Part shown: positions 3,654 to 10,372 of the stretch, one piece after another
Numbering within the stretch: position 1 is the first letter of the stretch
How the letters are laid out: every line of letters begins with the position of its first letter
Origin: an uncultured Lachnospiraceae bacterium
GTDB taxonomy: Bacteria > Bacillota > Clostridia > Lachnospirales > Lachnospiraceae
DNA length: 10,372 nt
NCBI GenBank assembly: GCA_945827765.1
Contig: CALZPS010000035.1
Coordinates: 1-10,372 of the forward strand
Reading direction: 5' to 3'
Program-made: the position numbers and the translations under genes
The notes under the pieces: model-generated
What the model saw: the letters and a program-made list of their open reading frames with translations, nothing else
Databases searched by the model: none
What the model was told of the DNA's origin: nothing

Positions 3654-4082
3654 TTATTCTACTCCCATTAAGAGATTCATCACATACATCTCAAGTGCTT
3701 CAAAGTCTCTGTTCTCCACACATTTTTTCTGGAAATCATAATCAAATCTGTCAACCTTCTCTTCCAGTGCCTTAAAGATTTTCAGGCTGTTTTCCAGATG
3801 CTTATAGCTGTCTTCATCCTTTGTAGTACGCATTGCTTTTACGTCAAGTCCTACATATTCGCCGTGCTCTCCATATCCGTTTTCTTTCAGGACCTTTACC
3901 TGATTGAAAGCAGAGCGAAGATTTTCTACACCGAAAGATTTGTCCTGATCGTAACGAATACCATTCTGGTCATTCAGATGTACTGTCATCAGCTTGCCCA
4001 TGGCCAGTGCAAATCCAATTTCGGGAAAGAAAACGGGTATGAACTTCAGTGCGCCTCGTATCTGAATCAAATATTTTATCAT
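3654..4082 (-). pseudogene. xylose-isomerase-like TIM-barrel protein, C-terminal remnant
   Basis: From about residue 20 (FPEIGFALAMGKLMTVHLND) to the end, the 142-codon frame resembles the last third of xylose-isomerase-like sugar isomerases. HLNDQNGIRYDQD at 35-47 sits where the family has its Asp-rich metal-binding stretch, GEYVGLDVKAMR at 74-85 follows, and the tail FEALEMYVMNLLMG matches the family's end. Full-length members are about 300-440 residues, so more than half of the barrel is missing. Upstream of about 4050 no frame gives recognisable isomerase sequence, and this frame meets a stop just before the ATG at 4082, which is probably not a real start. The stop lies three bases before the PfkB remnant, so this was the partner enzyme of that kinase. 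The sugar cannot be told. Confidence 0.7.
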
Positions 4083-4246
4083 ATTGTAAGAACCTGCCCT
4101 TATCGTCTTCTGTCAGAATCAGTTTTTCCATAATCAGCTTCCGGTTCAGCAAAAATCGCTGCTGACCACCCAGGAGTTTCTGTCTGATGCAAGTGCTCTG
4201 ATGATTCTCTGCCAGAAATATCGCCGTTAGACGGAGTATTTGCTCC
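4083..4246. other. unassigned spacer behind the CDF gene
   Basis: About 165 bases lie between the stop of the cation transporter and the isomerase remnant. A minus frame, open from the transporter end to 3970 with an ATG at 4152, and a plus frame, open from about 4090 to a TAG at 4228-4230, both avoid stops here. Neither gives a protein I recognise, and neither has a convincing ribosome site. The best reading is debris from the deletion that removed the N-terminal part of the isomerase gene. No terminator for the transporter gene is evident. Confidence 0.4.
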
Positions 4247-5164
4247 TCACTTTGCCGGATTCACATGAACCATAATATGTTTCACCTTCGGAAAATTCCG
4301 TTCAATGTCATTATGAACAGTTTCTGCAATAGTATGTGCTTCCTGCAATGTGTATGATGCATCTGCCTGAATTTCCACATCCACATATATTTTATTGCCA
4401 AAGATGCGTGTTTGAAGCAAATCTATGCCCATCACATTCTCGTTCTTCATGACGCAATCATAAATCTGCTTTTCTGTTTCTTCATCGCAGGAATGATCAA
4501 CCATCTTATCCATCGCATCCTTAAAAATGTCAAAAGCAGCTTTTACAATAAACACGAAAATAACCAGACTGGCAATAGAATCCATGACAGGAAAGCCCAG
4601 TCTTGCACCTCCGATTCCTATCAAGGCTCCTATTGAAGAAAATGCATCCGAACGATGATGCCACGCATCTGCCATTAATGCGCTGGAATCAATTTTCTTT
4701 GCATAGTATCTTGTATACCAATACATTCCTTCCTTACTGACAATTGATACGATTGCCGCAATCAATGCTAATATTCCCGGCACCTGTAAGCCGCTGTAAT
4801 TACCATTAATAATATTTTTTAATGCGTCCATACCAATTCCGAGACCCGTGATAAAAAGAACGACCGCCAGAATAATTGCCGCCACACATTCCAAACGTTC
4901 ATGTCCATAAGGATGCTCTTTATCAGGCTCTTTTGATGCCAGCTTAATCCCAATAATAACCACGAAAGTACTGAATACATCAGATGCCGAATGGATGGCA
5001 TCACTAATCATCGCATTGGAATGTGCTATAATTCCTGCAAGAAGTTTAAGCACAGACAGCACTACATTTCCAATAATTGTAATGAATGATACCCTGTTTG
5101 CCACTTTCTGAAAATCAGTTTCTGCAATATTGCTCTTCGTTGTTATTGTCTTGTTTTTATCCAT
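4247..5164 (-). CDS. cation diffusion facilitator (CDF) metal efflux protein
   Basis: The 305-residue protein (from ATG 5164) is a complete CDF antiporter: six membrane helices in about 25-210, then a cytoplasmic dimerisation domain (about 215-305). Residue numbers here count from the upstream ATG; subtract five for the preferred start. Helix 2 carries SDAIHSASD (Asp60, His63, Asp67). The loop motif HPYGHER is at 89-95. Helix 5 carries DAWHHRSD (His174, Asp178). The HxxxD pair in helices 2 and 5 is the metal site pattern of zinc- and related divalent-ion CDFs. It moves cytosolic metal out in exchange for protons. The gene is headed by a NiCo riboswitch, so its transcript is raised by cobalt, nickel or possibly iron(II). 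This makes a CzcD-like efflux role likely. The ATG at 5179 lies before the ribosome site and is not preferred. Confidence 0.93.
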   Translation of the reverse strand: MDKNKTITTKSNIAETDFQKVANRVSFITIIGNVVLSVLKLLAGIIAHSNAMISDAIHSASDVFSTFVVIIGIKLASKEPDKEHPYGHERLECVAAIILAVVLFITGLGIGMDALKNIINGNYSGLQVPGILALIAAIVSIVSKEGMYWYTRYYAKKIDSSALMADAWHHRSDAFSSIGALIGIGGARLGFPVMDSIASLVIFVFIVKAAFDIFKDAMDKMVDHSCDEETEKQIYDCVMKNENVMGIDLLQTRIFGNKIYVDVEIQADASYTLQEAHTIAETVHNDIERNFPKVKHIMVHVNPAK

Positions 5165-5502: not shown

Positions 5503-6495
5503 TCAGTTCAGATTTCCAAGGAACTCCTTTGCAGCCTCTCTCATCTGCTCCACCACTTCATCCGGTCCGACAACCCTCACATCCTTACCCAGACTAAAAA
5601 TCCAGCCATAGAACTGCGGGCTGACGTTCACATCCACATGAAGTTCGCTGTGTTCCTCATCAATCGGGCGAAAGGAAATGTCCTTTCCAAATCTGTCAAT
5701 GAAGACACCGCACATATAGTTGGAAAATAGAATTTTTACCTTCGTCTTCTGACCTTGATACATTCCGAAGGTCGCCTTAGAATACTCTGCCATATCGAAG
5801 TTTTTGAATTCTTCCTTACCGTCACGTTTCTCATCTTCTATGGAGATTCGCATCATCTTATCTACGCGGTAATGTTTAATCTTTTGATCCAAACCATCAA
5901 AGGCTACCATGTAATAATTCTCGTCGTCCCATGTGAGCGCCCAGGGACTGGCCACAAACCAATCACCATTATGTCTTGGGACAAGCTTTTTGCTGATGTC
6001 CCATTTAAAATATTTGAATCGAATCTTCTTGTTCTGATTGATTGCAGTATGAATAAAATCAACGTTGTAATACACGGACTCATTCATAGTCTTCACCCGA
6101 TCATTGATATACACTTGACGCTGTAACTGCTTAGCCTGATGCTCGCTCACAAAGCACTTGATCTTTGTAATCAGCTCGCGGGATTTTGTCTGAGTGATAA
6201 ACTTGGAAGACTGTATCGCATCGATGAGAAGCTTCACCTCTGCAAGTTCAAACTCTCTTGCGCCCACGTGGTAATAGGTTTCTCGTCCAATTTGTTCCTT
6301 GATGATTTCTATTCCCAGCTTATCCGTCATATCTGCAAAATCAGAATAAATACTTTTTCTTTCTGCAGTAACATCATACTTCTCAAGTTCTTCGATAATC
6401 TGTGGCATTGTTAGTGCATGCTCATCATCTGTCTTGGCAAGCATGATTTTGGTAAGGTAACTTAGTTTTAGTTTTTGATTGCTTCCTTTAGACAT
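5503..6495 (-). CDS. WYL-domain transcriptional regulator
   Basis: The 330-residue protein (from ATG 6495) has an N-terminal winged-helix-like region at about 7-60 (KLSYLTKIML ... PQIIEELEKYDVTAERKSIYSDF), a linker helix region, a WYL domain at about 138-215 (SPWALTWDDENYYMVAFD at 173-190, with YYM in place of the WYL triplet), and a C-terminal WCX-type region to the end. Proteins of this family bind DNA through the winged helix and are thought to sense a nucleic acid or small ligand through WYL; many regulate defence, metabolism or stress genes. The target is not shown by the sequence. The gene stands alone on the minus strand, with its back to the plus-strand secreted-protein operon, so the spacer at 6500-6840 could hold sites for control of either side. 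The upstream ATG at 6525 lacks a ribosome site. No convincing terminator is seen after the stop. Confidence 0.9.
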   Translation of the reverse strand: MSKGSNQKLKLSYLTKIMLAKTDDEHALTMPQIIEELEKYDVTAERKSIYSDFADMTDKLGIEIIKEQIGRETYYHVGAREFELAEVKLLIDAIQSSKFITQTKSRELITKIKCFVSEHQAKQLQRQVYINDRVKTMNESVYYNVDFIHTAINQNKKIRFKYFKWDISKKLVPRHNGDWFVASPWALTWDDENYYMVAFDGLDQKIKHYRVDKMMRISIEDEKRDGKEEFKNFDMAEYSKATFGMYQGQKTKVKILFSNYMCGVFIDRFGKDISFRPIDEEHSELHVDVNVSPQFYGWIFSLGKDVRVVGPDEVVEQMREAAKEFLGNLN

Positions 6496-6501
6496 TAGTC
6501 C

Positions 6502-6507
6502 ACCTCC
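6502..6507 (-). promoter_or_regulatory. ribosome binding site that fixes the WYL regulator start
   Basis: GGAGGT (6507-6502) is six bases before ATG 6495. The in-frame ATG at 6525 precedes the site, so ten residues should be dropped from the longest frame. Confidence 0.85.
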
Positions 6508-6552
6508 ATGTATCCCCAAAGCCATTACTTCAGGCTCAATTACTATACCGAT

Positions 6553-6583
6553 ATTGTACCACAGATGGACATTTTATTGGACA
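6553..6583 (-). promoter_or_regulatory. probable WYL-gene promoter with paired TGTCCA boxes
   Basis: TACAAT (6558-6553, minus strand) is a good -10, but no clear -35 stands 16-18 bases upstream. Instead TGTCCA occurs twice, at 6571-6566 and 6583-6578, exactly 12 bases apart. A weak -35 with two direct boxes suggests regulator binding, possibly autoregulation. This is inference. Confidence 0.45.
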
Positions 6584-6608
6584 GTTTTTTTGTGGGACAC
6601 ATGATGTA

Positions 6609-6653
6609 CCATTGGGGACAGGTTCATTGGTGCCATTGGGGACAGGTTCATTG
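6609..6653. repeat. tandem 21-base direct repeat (TGTCC-type)
   Basis: Two identical 21-base copies (6609-6629 and 6633-6653), each containing ATTGGGGACAGGTTCA, are separated by three bases, giving a 24-base period. Partial relatives of the GGACA core continue to the left at 6593-6599, 6578-6583 and 6566-6571. The unit recalls short dispersed repeats seen near REP-associated transposases, but no transposase is here. The open frame read through it (6574-6756, minus) is not a believable gene. Confidence 0.8.
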
Positions 6654-6749
6654 ACTCGCAGAGACTCTCATATGGTTTCATAAAAATAGTAAAAGTGCAT
6701 AAATAAAATTTAGAAATACTCGAAAAATGTACAAAATAACGAAAAGCAA

Positions 6750-6778
6750 TTGACACAAAGGACAGTATCGTATAAAAT
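6750..6778 (+). promoter_or_regulatory. strong promoter of the secreted-protein operon
   Basis: TTGACA at 6750-6755 and TAAAAT at 6773-6778 are 17 bases apart. The region before it (6680-6749) is very A-rich, like an UP element. Transcription should start near 6785, giving a leader of about 55 bases. No operator palindrome is obvious. Confidence 0.8.
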
Positions 6779-6825
6779 TAAATTTATGATTAGCTGTGGC
6801 GTATCCTTAGGGTTGTGGATCATAA

Positions 6826-6832
6826 GGGAGGT
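6826..6832 (+). promoter_or_regulatory. ribosome binding site for the small secreted protein
   Basis: GGGAGGT is six bases before ATG 6839. The earlier in-frame ATG at 6815 lies upstream of this site and is rejected. Confidence 0.85.
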
Positions 6833-6838
6833 ATTAGG

Positions 6839-7264
6839 ATGAGGAAGAGCAAAATGGTTTTAAAGAACAGGATTATCGGGTTATTGGTAGTATGTGTACT
6901 GCTGCTAGGGCTTTCTGCCACAGCTGTGGCAGGCAATGAGACAGTTGATGCAGTCAACTTTACGTTATATGCCTATCAGGGAGACTGGGAGAGTGACCCT
7001 GTAGCCAGAGCTACAAACAACAATACATTTTATATGGGAATTTACACGATGAGCAGAGATGGTGTGAAGGCTCGTGTTTGGACGGAATCACTGTTGGGTA
7101 CAAATTTTTCAGACCCATATGGGAATACCGTTGGAGCGGCAGAAGGGAAGTATTACAATTATGATACGAAACCGAGTATCGGAACAAATGTAGTACTGAA
7201 CATGGATGCTTCGATTTACTTATCATACAGTGTGACAGGTGTAGGGTTGTGGAGTCCATATTGA
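6839..7264 (+). CDS. small secreted beta-rich protein (DUF2712/YybN-like)
   Basis: The 141-residue precursor has a classic Sec signal peptide: basic start (MRKSKMVLKNR), hydrophobic core at about 12-25, and an AVA cleavage site before Gly32, leaving a mature protein of about 110 residues. The mature part has no cysteine and is rich in Tyr, Thr, Asn and Gly. It has short alternating segments typical of a beta fold, a Trp near each end (50, 138) and one in the middle (81), and ends in LWSPY. The spacing of ARATNNN, ARVW, SDPYGNTV, GKYYNY and the closing VTGVGLW reminds me of the DUF2712 family (B. subtilis YybN), and more loosely of lactococcin-972-type bacteriocins. I have not been able to test this. 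It has its own strong promoter and terminator, and leads an operon of three membrane proteins and an ABC ATPase. It may be an antimicrobial or signal protein, or a stress-response surface protein. Confidence 0.7.
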   Translation: MRKSKMVLKNRIIGLLVVCVLLLGLSATAVAGNETVDAVNFTLYAYQGDWESDPVARATNNNTFYMGIYTMSRDGVKARVWTESLLGTNFSDPYGNTVGAAEGKYYNYDTKPSIGTNVVLNMDASIYLSYSVTGVGLWSPY

Positions 7265-7273
7265 TGTATTAAT

Positions 7274-7318
7274 ATGCTATTGGTGAATTTGGTTCACATT
7301 TTAAGAGATGTGTAGCAT
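7274..7318 (+). repeat. inverted repeat behind the secreted-protein gene
   Basis: ATGCTA (7274-7279) can pair with TAGCAT (7313-7318), and inside it GTGAA (7283-7287) pairs with TTCAC (7293-7297). It is not followed by T residues. It lies just before the terminator at 7327-7369 and may protect the 3' end of the short transcript. Confidence 0.45.
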
Positions 7319-7326
7319 AAAGGGAA

Positions 7327-7369
7327 GGCTGTAGCGGTCAAATATTCTCGAATACGCTACAGTCTTTTT
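7327..7369 (+). terminator. intrinsic terminator between the secreted protein and the transporter genes
   Basis: GGCTGTAGCG (7327-7336) pairs with CGCTACAGTC (7355-7364) over ten pairs including one G-U, and an inner stem TATTC/GAATA closes the loop. Five T residues follow at 7365-7369. No separate promoter is obvious before the next gene, so the transporter genes probably depend on partial read-through. That would give much more secreted protein than transporter. Confidence 0.82.
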
Positions 7370-7386
7370 CACAGGAGGAGGAACGC

Positions 7387-8217
7387 ATGAATTATTTCAT
7401 TACTGATATAAAAAGCATGGTACGGAGTACATCTTTTCAACTTCTTTTTTTTGTGTCTGCTGTTGTGATGATTTTGGATCCTATTACAATGTACTTTGTG
7501 CTGGGAAACTCCAAAGGATATTTTGAAGAGCTCGGAACAAACTTTTACCGTCACTGGATTTTGATGAACTATAGTTGGGGAAATCGTTTGTTTTGTAGTT
7601 TATTTTTTGCAATTCCGTGTATTTTGCCTGGATTGGTTTATTATCATGAACAAAAATCTTCTGTCAGGGATTTGTTGGTTACGCGAGGAACATGGAAACA
7701 ATATTTTTTGTCCAAGGTTTTTGCACAGATACTGACAGCTTTTTTTACATTGCTACTGTTGTTTGTAATCAATGGGATAGTAACGGGAATCTTCTTTCCG
7801 GTCAATGGTCCTTTGATTATGGATCAGGTGGACATTACCCCAATCAAAGAAAGCTTTGCGTATTCCTTGTTTGTAAAAAGTCCGATGCTAGTAGTTTTGA
7901 TCTATTGGTTTCTGGTGGCGGCGGCGCTGGCACTGCTTTCGTTAAATACAATGGCGATTCTATCCGTTATCCATTTTAAAAATATTTATCTTACGTTGCT
8001 AGTGCCATTTGTCGTATATACGCTTGGAGATATGCTGATAAGCAAGTACATAGATTGGAAATATTCTCTGCTGATTATGATGCAGCCGAGTGCAACATGG
8101 GGCGTGACGGATCTTTATACAAGTTGGAGCAACTGGGGTGTTATATTCGGCGTACTGATTTTGGCGGATGTTGTTCTGCTTTTGATAGGATACCGGAAAG
8201 GCAAAGAAAGCATATGA
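7387..8217 (+). CDS. integral membrane protein 1 of ABC-2-like transporter (YybM/DUF2705-like)
   Basis: The 276-residue product has about six membrane segments (near 17-39, 68-86, 111-137, 166-188, 198-217, 250-269), with a charged cytoplasmic loop HEQKSSVRDLLVTRGTWKQYF at about 87-107. Such a loop before the third helix is typical of ABC-2-type permeases, where it meets the ATPase. It has no ATPase of its own and is presumably served by the one at 9575-10240. A strong ribosome site (GGAGGAGG, 7374-7381) precedes ATG 7387. Its last codons overlap the next gene as ATGA. The resemblance to B. subtilis YybM (DUF2705) comes from size, topology and position and is from memory. Whether it exports the neighbouring secreted protein, protects against it or moves something else is unknown. 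Confidence 0.72.
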   Translation: MNYFITDIKSMVRSTSFQLLFFVSAVVMILDPITMYFVLGNSKGYFEELGTNFYRHWILMNYSWGNRLFCSLFFAIPCILPGLVYYHEQKSSVRDLLVTRGTWKQYFLSKVFAQILTAFFTLLLLFVINGIVTGIFFPVNGPLIMDQVDITPIKESFAYSLFVKSPMLVVLIYWFLVAAALALLSLNTMAILSVIHFKNIYLTLLVPFVVYTLGDMLISKYIDWKYSLLIMMQPSATWGVTDLYTSWSNWGVIFGVLILADVVLLLIGYRKGKESI

Positions 8218-8873
8218 TTGATTCAAGGGAAAAGAAATATTGGTTTTGTGGTATTATTATATACCACAGTGTCATAATTTTTACATTTTGTATCATGAAT
8301 GATTCAGCCGCGGAATTATTTTTTAAAATTACAGACGCAAAAACGCATGTGATGTTGTTTGCATTTCCATATCAGTTGTTATTGGCACTTGGTGATAAAT
8401 ATATGACGATTCCGATGGTGATCCGGTTTGGCAGTCGGGAAAAAATCTGGGAAGAGCGCGTGAAAACAGCATATATATGGGGCGGTATCTATATGGGTAT
8501 CTGGCTTGTATTCCTTTTTGTTGCTTGTACGTTACGTCCTGGATATCTGCAGGATTTTCCGGTGGAAACAGCGATTTCCCGAGTGCTGCATCTGTTCTGC
8601 AATATTTTAATTCTTTGCAGTTTATCTCTGATTTTTCGCATGTCTGGGAATGTAAAACTGGCAAAAGGGGCATATCCGCTTGCCCTTTTGGCACTGTGCG
8701 CGGAAACGCTCGGACTGGAAAGATGGATTAAGGCAAGCACAAATATTGAACTAAACCTACTATTTAATTGGGCATATCATTTAAATTTTGACAGCCTTAT
8801 CATACAAATTATTTTAATCTGTGTGATGTTGTTACTGCTACGTAGGCTCTGTATGCGGGAGGATTTGTTATGA
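8214..8873 (+). CDS. integral membrane protein 2 of the same transporter
   Basis: The preferred start is ATG 8214, which overlaps the previous stop as ATGA, giving 219 residues. The frame is open from further upstream (8055), but that part is out-of-frame reading of the preceding gene. Six membrane segments are visible (about 9-28, 44-60, 86-106, 121-142, 151-168, 193-211). The charged loop RFGSREKIWEERVKTAY at 71-87 again has the look of an ABC-2 permease coupling loop. The end overlaps the next gene as ATGA (8870-8873). Tight translational coupling on both sides suggests fixed stoichiometry in one membrane complex. I do not recognise a named family beyond the likeness in position to YybL. 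Confidence 0.72.
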   Translation: MIDSREKKYWFCGIIIYHSVIIFTFCIMNDSAAELFFKITDAKTHVMLFAFPYQLLLALGDKYMTIPMVIRFGSREKIWEERVKTAYIWGGIYMGIWLVFLFVACTLRPGYLQDFPVETAISRVLHLFCNILILCSLSLIFRMSGNVKLAKGAYPLALLALCAETLGLERWIKASTNIELNLLFNWAYHLNFDSLIIQIILICVMLLLLRRLCMREDLL

Positions 8874-9571
8874 GGCTGTTGATAAAAAATGTGTTCTATA
8901 AGTTTATTCTCATATGGATTGGGAGTTTTGTACTCTTGTCCTATATGATTGAGCAGCCTTTTCTGGAAAATGGAGACTGGCTGCGCTTATTATTTGGCGG
9001 TGTGAAGATGGGCACTGCTTCCATAATCATGGTATATATGTGTTCAATGGCATTGCTACAGTATCTGCATCTGGACACTACACTGTTATGCACAAAAGAA
9101 GAAGGCGTATTATTGTCCCGTTTAAAGAGCCGCAAAAAGTTGTTTTGGCATTCGGTGCGAAGTATATGCATATTAAATGTACTATTTTGTATTTGCGTTG
9201 CAACAGCGGGGATAGTGGCAATGGCTCTGGCTGAAAAGACAGGATGGAATGAAAACCTGATTTTGTTTTCAGAAATGATGGAAATCATTGTGCGTGGTTT
9301 TCTGTTTTGTGTATTGTTTGCAGTTGTTCAGGCGATTATACTGACTTATGTGGATGAGGCAAAGGCATTTTTAATTATGACAGGAATCTGTGCCGTCTTG
9401 GTGATATGTTCAAAAATTAAACTTGCATTTTTGATATTGCCTGCACCATTTAAACTTGAAGGAGCACTTACAAATGTCGCAGTTTCCGTATGTATCATGT
9501 ATATTATAATCGCAATGGTAATATTCAGAAAAAGGTTATTAAGCAGAGATATCGGAATTGACAGGAGGTAG
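8870..9571 (+). CDS. integral membrane protein 3 of the same transporter
   Basis: The 233-residue product starts at ATG 8870 inside the ATGA overlap. It has about six membrane segments (10-26, 45-66, 99-121, 137-160, 163-182, 203-220) and a basic cytoplasmic loop EEGVLLSRLKSRKKLFWHS at 77-95. It is the third ABC-2-like membrane protein in a row, which is unusual, since most such transporters have one or two. A short basic tail ends at Arg233. The ATPase gene follows three bases later, and its ribosome site (AGGAGGT) is formed by the last codons and stop of this gene. By position it would match YybK. Function is unknown. Confidence 0.7.
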   Translation: MRLLIKNVFYKFILIWIGSFVLLSYMIEQPFLENGDWLRLLFGGVKMGTASIIMVYMCSMALLQYLHLDTTLLCTKEEGVLLSRLKSRKKLFWHSVRSICILNVLFCICVATAGIVAMALAEKTGWNENLILFSEMMEIIVRGFLFCVLFAVVQAIILTYVDEAKAFLIMTGICAVLVICSKIKLAFLILPAPFKLEGALTNVAVSVCIMYIIIAMVIFRKRLLSRDIGIDRR

Positions 9572-9574
9572 AAT

Positions 9575-10240
9575 ATGAAAATCAAGATACACCATGTGAC
9601 AAAGACAATCAAGGATAATATGATATTGGACGACATTAATCTGGAGATGGAGAGTGGGAACATTTATGGTTTTGTAGGAATTAACGGTAGTGGGAAGACG
9701 ATGTTGATGCGCATGATTGCAGGACTAATCCGACCTACAGAAGGAACCGTTTCCGTTGACGGAAAGGAATTGCATAAGGAGATTTCATTTCCACCGGATA
9801 TGGGTCTCATTATCGAGAAACCGGAGCTTTTAGGTCACCTGAACGGTCTGGAGAACCTGAAACTACTGGCCGGAATCAAAAAGAAAGTGACAGAAGGGCA
9901 AATGAAAGGTTTTCTGGAGCAGTTTGGGCTGGATCCAAATGACAAACGCCCACTTCGGAAGTATTCTCTGGGAATGAAACAAAAAATCGGAATCATTCAG
10001 GCAATTATGGAAGACCCGCAATTGTTGATTATGGACGAGCCTTTTAACGCCTTGGACGAGGGTACGGTCGAGATGCTTAGAAATTTGTTTATCGAATACA
10101 AGCAACAGGGGAAACTGATTATCATGACATCTCATCATTCAGAAGATATCGAGTTATTATGCGATGAGACCGTATATATGCAGGATGGGAAAATTAAAAA
10201 GAAAACGTTAAAAGATGTAGAGATACAGCGTGATGCTTAA
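9575..10240 (+). CDS. ABC transporter ATPase (ABC-2/BcrA type)
   Basis: The 221-residue protein is a stand-alone ATPase of the class that drives ABC-2 permeases, including bacitracin and lantibiotic immunity pumps. Walker A GINGSGKT is at 35-42. The Q-loop position holds Glu81 (IIEKP) instead of Gln, as is common in BcrA-like subunits. The signature is the divergent SLGMKQ at 131-136, Walker B is LLIMDE at 150-155, the D-loop is NALD at 158-161, and the switch His187 sits in TSHH. All catalytic residues are present. A strong ribosome site six bases before ATG 9575 suggests good translation. It presumably powers the three membrane proteins encoded just upstream. By order and size it corresponds to B. 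subtilis YybJ. Another ATG (10233) overlaps its stop, so the operon may continue. Confidence 0.93.
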   Translation: MKIKIHHVTKTIKDNMILDDINLEMESGNIYGFVGINGSGKTMLMRMIAGLIRPTEGTVSVDGKELHKEISFPPDMGLIIEKPELLGHLNGLENLKLLAGIKKKVTEGQMKGFLEQFGLDPNDKRPLRKYSLGMKQKIGIIQAIMEDPQLLIMDEPFNALDEGTVEMLRNLFIEYKQQGKLIIMTSHHSEDIELLCDETVYMQDGKIKKKTLKDVEIQRDA

Positions 10241-10372
10241 AACCAAAACATTTACATCGGAAGAAAAAGAGCATTCTGTCCGTCGGCTGCTTTTCCATCG
10301 GTGTATTTGCGACCGGCGCAATCAGTTTAGGAATCATTTCTCTCGGGGCAATTGCAATCGGTGATTTCTCTA
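10233..10372 (+). CDS. glycine-every-fifth-residue repeat protein, partial, apparent frameshift
   Basis: The frame starting at ATG 10233, which overlaps the ATPase stop, reads MLKTKTFTSEEK and then loses sense, with a stop at about 10359. From 10270 the +1 frame gives SILSVGCFSIGVFATGAISL and continues to the window end. Its Gly residues recur every five positions in blocks of the type GxxSxG/GxxAxG. That pattern belongs to small hydrophobic glycine-repeat proteins common in Clostridia. The second frame has no ATG, GTG or TTG of its own before the repeats. Removing one A from the A5 run at 10264-10268 would join the two parts. So the gene is broken by a one-base insertion, or the base is a sequence error, or initiation is non-standard. 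Function unknown. Confidence 0.55.

Follow-up and report, generated by a model that had tools for sequence, protein, structure and literature searches.

A recurrent operon type pairing a small secreted protein with an ABC transporter, and a divergent variant from an uncultured Lachnospiraceae bacterium

Why would a small protein that carries its own Sec-type signal sequence be encoded directly ahead of a dedicated ABC transporter with three membrane proteins? The question is raised by five genes on contig CALZPS010000035.1 (assembly GCA_945827765.1) of an uncultured Lachnospiraceae bacterium, whose genome assembly is 1.8 Mb and 69% complete; the entire contig, 10,372 nucleotides long, was analysed and is called the window below, and loci compared with it carry L numbers. 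In order, the genes encode the small protein, the membrane proteins MP1, MP2 and MP3, and an ABC ATPase, the last four forming the putative pump. We find that the operon type is real and recurrent and that the window holds a divergent variant of it. As to its role we favour toxin plus immunity, and give about even probability to the small protein being a bacteriocin-like effector against which the dedicated ABC complex protects the producer.

A coupled five-gene operon and its relatives

All five reading frames lie on one strand and are uninterrupted, at the coordinates given in a preliminary description of this DNA (Table 1). MP1 overlaps MP2 (8214–8217) and MP2 overlaps MP3 (8870–8873) by four bases each, and three bases separate MP3 from the ATPase gene. 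The membrane proteins had been described as three coupled six-helix proteins; the coupling stands, but by simple hydropathy MP1 and MP3 have six strong hydrophobic segments each and MP2 has four, so that the six-helix label is good for two of the three. The ATPase was correctly recognised, with a PF00005 match at 5.4e-30 and Walker A, signature (YSLGMK) and Walker B motifs, as was the Sec-type, cysteine-free small protein, which has an N-terminal signal sequence and a mature part of 110 residues (12.1 kDa, pI 4.3, zero cysteines). Its start is the ATG at 6839, with an in-frame GTG upstream at 6815.

The linkage of a small secreted protein to such a pump recurs across genomes. A small secreted ORF lies at most 2.6 kb upstream of 29 of 48 MP1-type genes, the window included, compared to 14 of 186 control ORFs drawn from the same stretches; counted by hand the figure is 28 of 48 (L015 and L044 had been scored wrongly and L041 missed). 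Part of these loci were chosen for carrying a gene of the DUF2712 family, and the set includes the near-copies L047 and L099; among loci newly fetched by MP1 similarity alone (L090–L112), the linkage is present in 11 of 23, or 14 of 26 with three MP1 hits already known via DUF2712 (L033, L040 and L042). The pump-linked small proteins are not all DUF2712-like: by eye, those of L091, L096 and L104 resemble one another, and those of L097, L110 and L111 stand apart. The former type lies directly 5′ of its pumps (L096 7282–7701, L104 8494–8916, L091 7906–8325) and ends, again by eye, in a C-terminal FRGN/FCGN pattern.

The gene order of this operon, in which MP1, MP2, MP3 and the ATPase come after a small Sec protein and share its strand, is also that of yybN-yybM-yybL-yybK-yybJ in Bacillus subtilis, and MP1 is homologous to the YybM-position protein. 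This parallel, drawn in the preliminary description, is borne out by annotated plasmids of Priestia, a soil relative of Bacillus, where the order is DUF2712, DUF2705 (or a hypothetical protein), WxPxxD, DUF2705 and ABC, each of the window's membrane proteins fitting its own position best, with the differing strengths given below; a chromosome-length Listeria record shows a matching layout, judged by its ORFs. Three permeases for one ATPase had been called unusual, but they are normal for this family: three are likewise found in the operons of Priestia, Listeria and L034.

Searches of relatives were sparse in matches. The window's small protein as query matched in 3 of 61 relatives, itself included and the others weakly, and MP1 in 2 of 98, again counting itself; used as a small profile, MP1 had matches in 2 of 12 genus genomes and 25 of 397 family genomes, and DUF2712 exceeded its cut-off in 4 of the 61 relatives, in 11 of 397 genomes at family level and in 1 of 398 at phylum level. 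With such low counts of MP1 and DUF2712, operons of this kind are therefore scattered. The window's exact gene combination occurred in no other genome searched, and a plasmid search with its small protein and MP1 gave no match. A viral home of the operon was considered and rejected, as scans of viral contigs with the small protein and the query A1 found no relative. A DUF2712 relative with 48% identity to the L034 protein is present in two Listeria phage records that lack annotation, each about 22 kb long (OR848112.1 and OR846763.1).

Kinship of the small protein and composition of the pump

The proposed match of the small protein to DUF2712 (PF10916) survives in part. Pfam assigned it no family at E 1, it falls short of the PF10916 gathering score of 22 bits, and that model found no match at E 0.1 in the window's own genome. 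Against a profile, however, it scored 10.7 bits and ranked right after 29 distinct clear DUF2712 members and above about 389 other ORFs, the next at 7.1, in a set of 449 ORFs of 80–220 aa (377 distinct) whose 57 top rows are those 29 proteins, many of them also training rows of the profile. Compared with a profile built from the others, the mature part reached 13.3 bits and beat all of 300 shuffles (best 9.5), a comparison that 2 of the 21 other proteins fail; these two, L110 and L097, are for that reason not safe members. Alignment with the 21 relatives, at 12–22% identity, places R26, G105 and W107 in near-invariant columns, an R ... G-x-W pattern. Membership is opposed by the wide gap to the weakest clear member, at 31.6 bits, and by an earlier profile, against which 2 of 500 shuffles reached the score of the mature part and the full-length score came mostly from the signal peptide. 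On this sequence evidence, the small protein is probably a very divergent DUF2712 member lying below the curated cut-off.

Its AlphaFold2 model is all-beta, with seven strands and no helix, at low confidence (mean pLDDT 62.9, pTM 0.48). A bona fide DUF2712 protein, that of L034, gave a comparable all-beta model (pLDDT 64.8), and the fold-search neighbours of the two overlap (GOLD-domain, PirA, Ena), a comparison made at pLDDT values of 63–65, with overlapping input alignments and for a common fold. A sequence search of the PDB with the small protein returned nothing at E 1, and four PDB matches of the DUF2712 profile (E 0.05–0.93) were taken as chance.

In the pump, each membrane protein matches its own operon position best: MP1 strongly, MP3 moderately and MP2 weakly. 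hhalign of MP1 against Bacillus-type plus Lachnospiraceae MP1 proteins gave 99.2% (P 7.6e-20), and 90.6% against the Bacillus-type set alone; MP3 reached 58.6% (P 9.5e-5) and MP2 24.4% (P 8e-4) at their own positions, and with smaller profiles both of these fell below 4%. Like the small protein, MP2 and MP3 matched no curated family model in Pfam or NCBIfam, neither MP2 as WxPxxD (NF035952) nor MP3 as DUF2705 (PF10920). Operons with two permeases indicate which subunits are retained: in nine of them the second permease resembles the MP3 of three-permease operons at 99.9% (P 1e-33), compared to 34% for MP2 and 7% for MP1, and in four further ones it matches MP3 at 92.8%. Against window-type MP3 alone, the two sets gave 0.1% and 5.1%, i.e. 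nothing, because that MP3 set is small and divergent. Since the two-permease operons tested keep an MP1-like and an MP3-like protein, the conserved core appears to be MP1 plus MP3, with MP2 optional. A 2024 survey, in the portion available, modelled YybJ2KL without YybM and rated the gap between the permeases as unlikely to be accurate (PMC11466899); YybM plus YybK would be our choice of permease pair over that model.

A proposed role in toxin plus immunity, and rival roles

The sequences show five coupled and undamaged genes, a signal sequence at the N terminus of the small protein, a linkage that recurs between loci, and pumps kept where the small gene is absent; secretion, antibacterial activity and immunity we infer. 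The small protein would leave the cell via Sec and, as an exported beta-sandwich protein, act on the envelope of other bacteria; the ABC complex would clear it, or a complex of it, from the producer membrane, as LanFEG pumps do. Such a pump would combine the MP1 and MP3 core with two ATPase copies, MP2 being accessory. With a promoter ahead of the small gene and a leaky hairpin behind it, effector would be made in quantity and pump in smaller amounts.

The role of the pump in immunity or removal, already suggested in the preliminary description, is the likeliest one as judged from the ATPase tree and from the loci L045 and L046, only the second of which has the small gene. DNA identity between these two loci is 78.7% on the regulator side and 84.1% in the pump, and a further patch of 74 bases aligns at 74%. 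Where L046 has 689 bases containing the DUF2712 gene, L045 has 71, with no remnant of the gene found in them, a comparison compatible with either state being the older. Pump-only loci are expected of toxin-immunity pairs. L040 and L112 were tried as a second such pair and set aside, there being no alignable DNA upstream of their pump regions. On a tree of 44 ATPases, not fully settled (0.988, with 0.99 wanted) and with small-gene labels set by hand, presence of the small gene changes 12 times and is not clustered (shuffled mean 13.4; 122 of 500 shuffles as low).

Further support comes from hairpins after the small gene and from quorum-sensing genes nearby. In the window, the interval between the small gene and MP1 (7265–7386) folds with z = −2.6, and a hairpin comparable to that in Table 1 arose in 3 of 60 shuffles of it; a stricter terminator scan (loops ≤8) listed none in 6500–10372. 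Hairpins 3′ of the small gene occur in 7 of 24 loci compared to 0.60 expected, and none of 60 shuffled sets had more than three (of 31 loci measured, seven have fewer than 25 bases between the genes and were excluded beforehand, and the other 24 were scored; L102 was also left aside). Of 51 stretches totalling 741 kb, 17 contain GHKL kinase, LytTR or AgrB genes and 8 contain AgrB itself, whereas 41 whole relative genomes hold 38 AgrB matches in about 126 Mb, an about 35-fold lower density; the queries for the loci were taken from the same loci, the genomes were searched with the Pfam model, and the 126 Mb is summed from rounded sizes. Together with the small-gene linkage, the Priestia gene order, the positional homology of the membrane proteins, the small gene missing from L045 with the pump kept and its 12 changes on the tree, these data support the toxin reading, as do, indirectly, the Rok-repressed company of the yybN operon and streptococcin B genomes with the non-bacteriocin genes alone, described below.

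The main rival, though an unlikely one, is a resistance module, in which the small protein would kill nothing and serve as a secreted decoy or sensor that binds an antimicrobial or its target, e.g. lipid II, while the ABC complex removes the antimicrobial. The surroundings of several pumps speak for it. L032 has LytTR, kinase, LanA-like ORF, LanM, DUF2712 and pump genes in series; six of the 51 stretches carry ECF sigma-like genes, upstream on the pump strand in L043, L044, L090, L092 and L037 and elsewhere in L049, with a zf-HC2 protein added in L044 and a DUF4179 protein in L090; BlaR1/MecI-like genes lie upstream in L096 (by Pfam), with a similar gene in L051; and in L018 a DUF5027 lipoprotein-like gene (6774–7529), absent from the window, stands between small gene and pump. 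Lantibiotic-immunity helpers, however, are membrane-anchored, and neither a lipobox nor a further hydrophobic segment is seen in the small protein. Moreover, its loss with the rest kept and its divergence to 12–22% identity suit an effector better.

A role of the ABC complex in export or assembly of the small protein, as a surface protein, fibre or signal, with no protective function, we regard as improbable. The frequent adjacency of small gene and pump would suit export, exporter models (PmtC for PSM export, and GldA) are among the weaker ATPase matches, and the jelly-roll models resemble fibre subunits, Ena2A among others; but the small protein already comes with a signal peptide, pumps are kept where its gene is absent, and the best-scoring ATPase model is one for lantibiotic protection. 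Slightly less probable again, in our judgement, is that the small gene is a chance neighbour of an ordinary envelope-stress pump. Here the closest relatives of the window's pump carry weight, L090, L043 and L044, with ATPase identities of 65% and 57–58%, which form a clade of full support with it and in which the pump is preceded by no small secreted gene, an ECF sigma gene with an adjoining partner gene being present instead; the unclustered presence of the small gene on the tree points the same way. Against this stand a linkage well over control, the common first-gene position with no intervening gene, and the DUF2712 similarity still seen in the small protein of the window.

Extending the toxin reading, we tentatively put forward a broader possibility, itself somewhat doubtful: DUF2712-type operons may be an unrecognised class encoding Sec-secreted antibacterial jelly-roll proteins of Bacillota, often near agr-type quorum-sensing genes and with an MP1 plus MP3 ABC immunity core, whose pump-only descendants with ECF-sigma or BlaR1-type sensing would serve non-producers in defence. 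On this view the window would bridge the two, as a producer from the ECF-type pump clade whose effector has diverged beyond the reach of current models. L037 has an ECF sigma-like gene together with a DUF2712 gene, and the two are therefore not mutually exclusive. If the toxin reading is true, gut commensals would hold a group of antibacterial proteins, each with its matching immunity.

Other features and comparison with known systems

Table 1. Features of the operon and its divergent neighbour in the window.
Feature	Coordinates	Strand	Basis or remark
WYL/WCX regulator, divergent neighbour of the operon	5503–6525		Pfam search
Promoter-like site TTGACA-17-TAAAAT, 11/12 consensus bases	6750–6778	+	Top score in promoter scan
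Small secreted protein gene; probably divergent DUF2712 protein	6839–7264	+	Sequence, profile and model comparisons
Signal peptide of small protein	about 6839–6931	+	Cleavage site placed by eye
Mature small protein, 110 aa, cysteine-free	6932–7261	+	Cleavage site placed by eye
Terminator-like hairpin (12-bp stem, 18-nt loop, T run) between small gene and pump genes	7325–7369	+	
MP1, permease, six hydrophobic segments; YybM position, likely core subunit	7387–8217	+	
MP2, membrane protein; YybL/WxPxxD position (weak positional match, 24.4%), likely optional subunit	8214–8873	+	
MP3, permease, six hydrophobic segments; YybK/DUF2705 position (58.6%), likely core subunit	8870–9571	+	
ABC ATPase; best NCBIfam model TIGR03740 (lantibiotic protection), under cut-off	9575–10240	+	

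The promoter scan listed 19 sites in the scanned region compared to 13.0 expected from shuffles, the site in Table 1 ranking first. In the survey of the 51 stretches, the window had no ECF sigma-like, GHKL kinase, LytTR, AgrB, LanM or BlaR1/MecI-like genes. LanM genes were found in three stretches, each beside a DUF2712 gene (L032 9055–14777 and L017 451–7536, both by Pfam; L015 2912–7347, by similarity). In L032 the 48-aa LanA-like ORF, recognised by eye (12569–12715, minus strand), lies right before LanM and the DUF2712-pump module after it, and the idea that LanM modifies the DUF2712 protein was dropped because the LanA-like ORF directly precedes LanM.

Past the ATPase gene, a frame with many I-S-x-G-type repeats and no clear start runs off the contig (10241–10372). 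L042 has at this position a gene with a sub-threshold DUF5028 match (4045–4635), which in the window would lie beyond the visible sequence, and other loci have like-sized genes with one hydrophobic segment at positions of the L018 or L042 type. Upstream of the operon (6610–6653), the 20-mer CATTGGGGACAGGTTCATTG occurs as a tandem pair 24 bases apart and has two near-copies elsewhere in the same genome, with 1 and 2 mismatches, the reversed control having none; the pair is possibly a REP-like element. Farther away, at 675–2889 on the minus strand, an ABC exporter (568 aa) lies beside a 174-aa protein that matched nothing in NCBIfam (E 1) or Pfam (E 0.01). Positions 11–44 at the contig start we take to be Illumina Nextera read-2 adapter, from which ORFs reaching that end (1–687 minus, 16–603 plus) contain artefact peptides.

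Among known systems, an anti-phage defence label was rejected, matches to PADLOC models being confined to the ATPase (the best to mad3, 1.5e-22) and lying in ATPase domains. LanFEG pumps have one ATPase, two core permeases and no exporter peptidase. The window's ATPase scores best in NCBIfam with TIGR03740, at 166.5 bits (cut-off 309.75); unlike LanFEG, a third membrane protein is added, and lanthipeptide genes were not found in the window.

Mature lactococcin 972 is about 66 aa long, compared to 110 aa here. Kinship with lactococcin 972, raised in the preliminary description, is unsupported by Pfam and by TIGR03608, for which the ATPase scores 106.3 bits (cut-off 254.85), far below it and a poorer fit than the lantibiotic-protection model, itself below its cut-off. 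There is no sequence match of the small proteins, the window has three permeases, and lactococcin 972 was not among the fold-search neighbours shown, which excludes nothing. Lactococcin 972 thus serves as an analogy only. As the excerpts of two papers describe them, the lactococcin 972 and streptococcin B operons encode a bacteriocin, a predicted immunity membrane protein and a predicted transporter protein, the small protein being thought to be Sec-exported and followed by membrane and ABC genes, and loci without the bacteriocin gene exist (PMC11796350, PMC4055356). For streptococcin B, 157 of 571 genomes reportedly had none but the non-bacteriocin genes, for which the roles are predictions (PMC11796350, in part).

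Closest are the yybNMLKJ and Priestia operons, which share with the window the five-gene order, a small Sec protein first, a clearly homologous MP1 and the ATPase subfamily, and from which it differs in that its small protein, MP2 and MP3 match no curated model. L062 has a sixth gene after the ATPase, and the window's contig ends before such a gene could be seen. Within the literature collection searched, and papers beyond it aside, we found none naming DUF2712 and no description of such an operon system. The sbo-alb, sun, yyd and sdp operons of B. subtilis make antimicrobials. The yybN operon is Rok-repressed, as are these four and others, e.g. comK (PMC2978689, excerpt); a moderate dipyridyl sensitivity was noted for a yybN deletion (PMC6212828, excerpt), and an excerpt of a further paper still describes the function of the operon as unknown (PMC11841835). 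The present case ties this yybN operon to a family in gut Bacillota.

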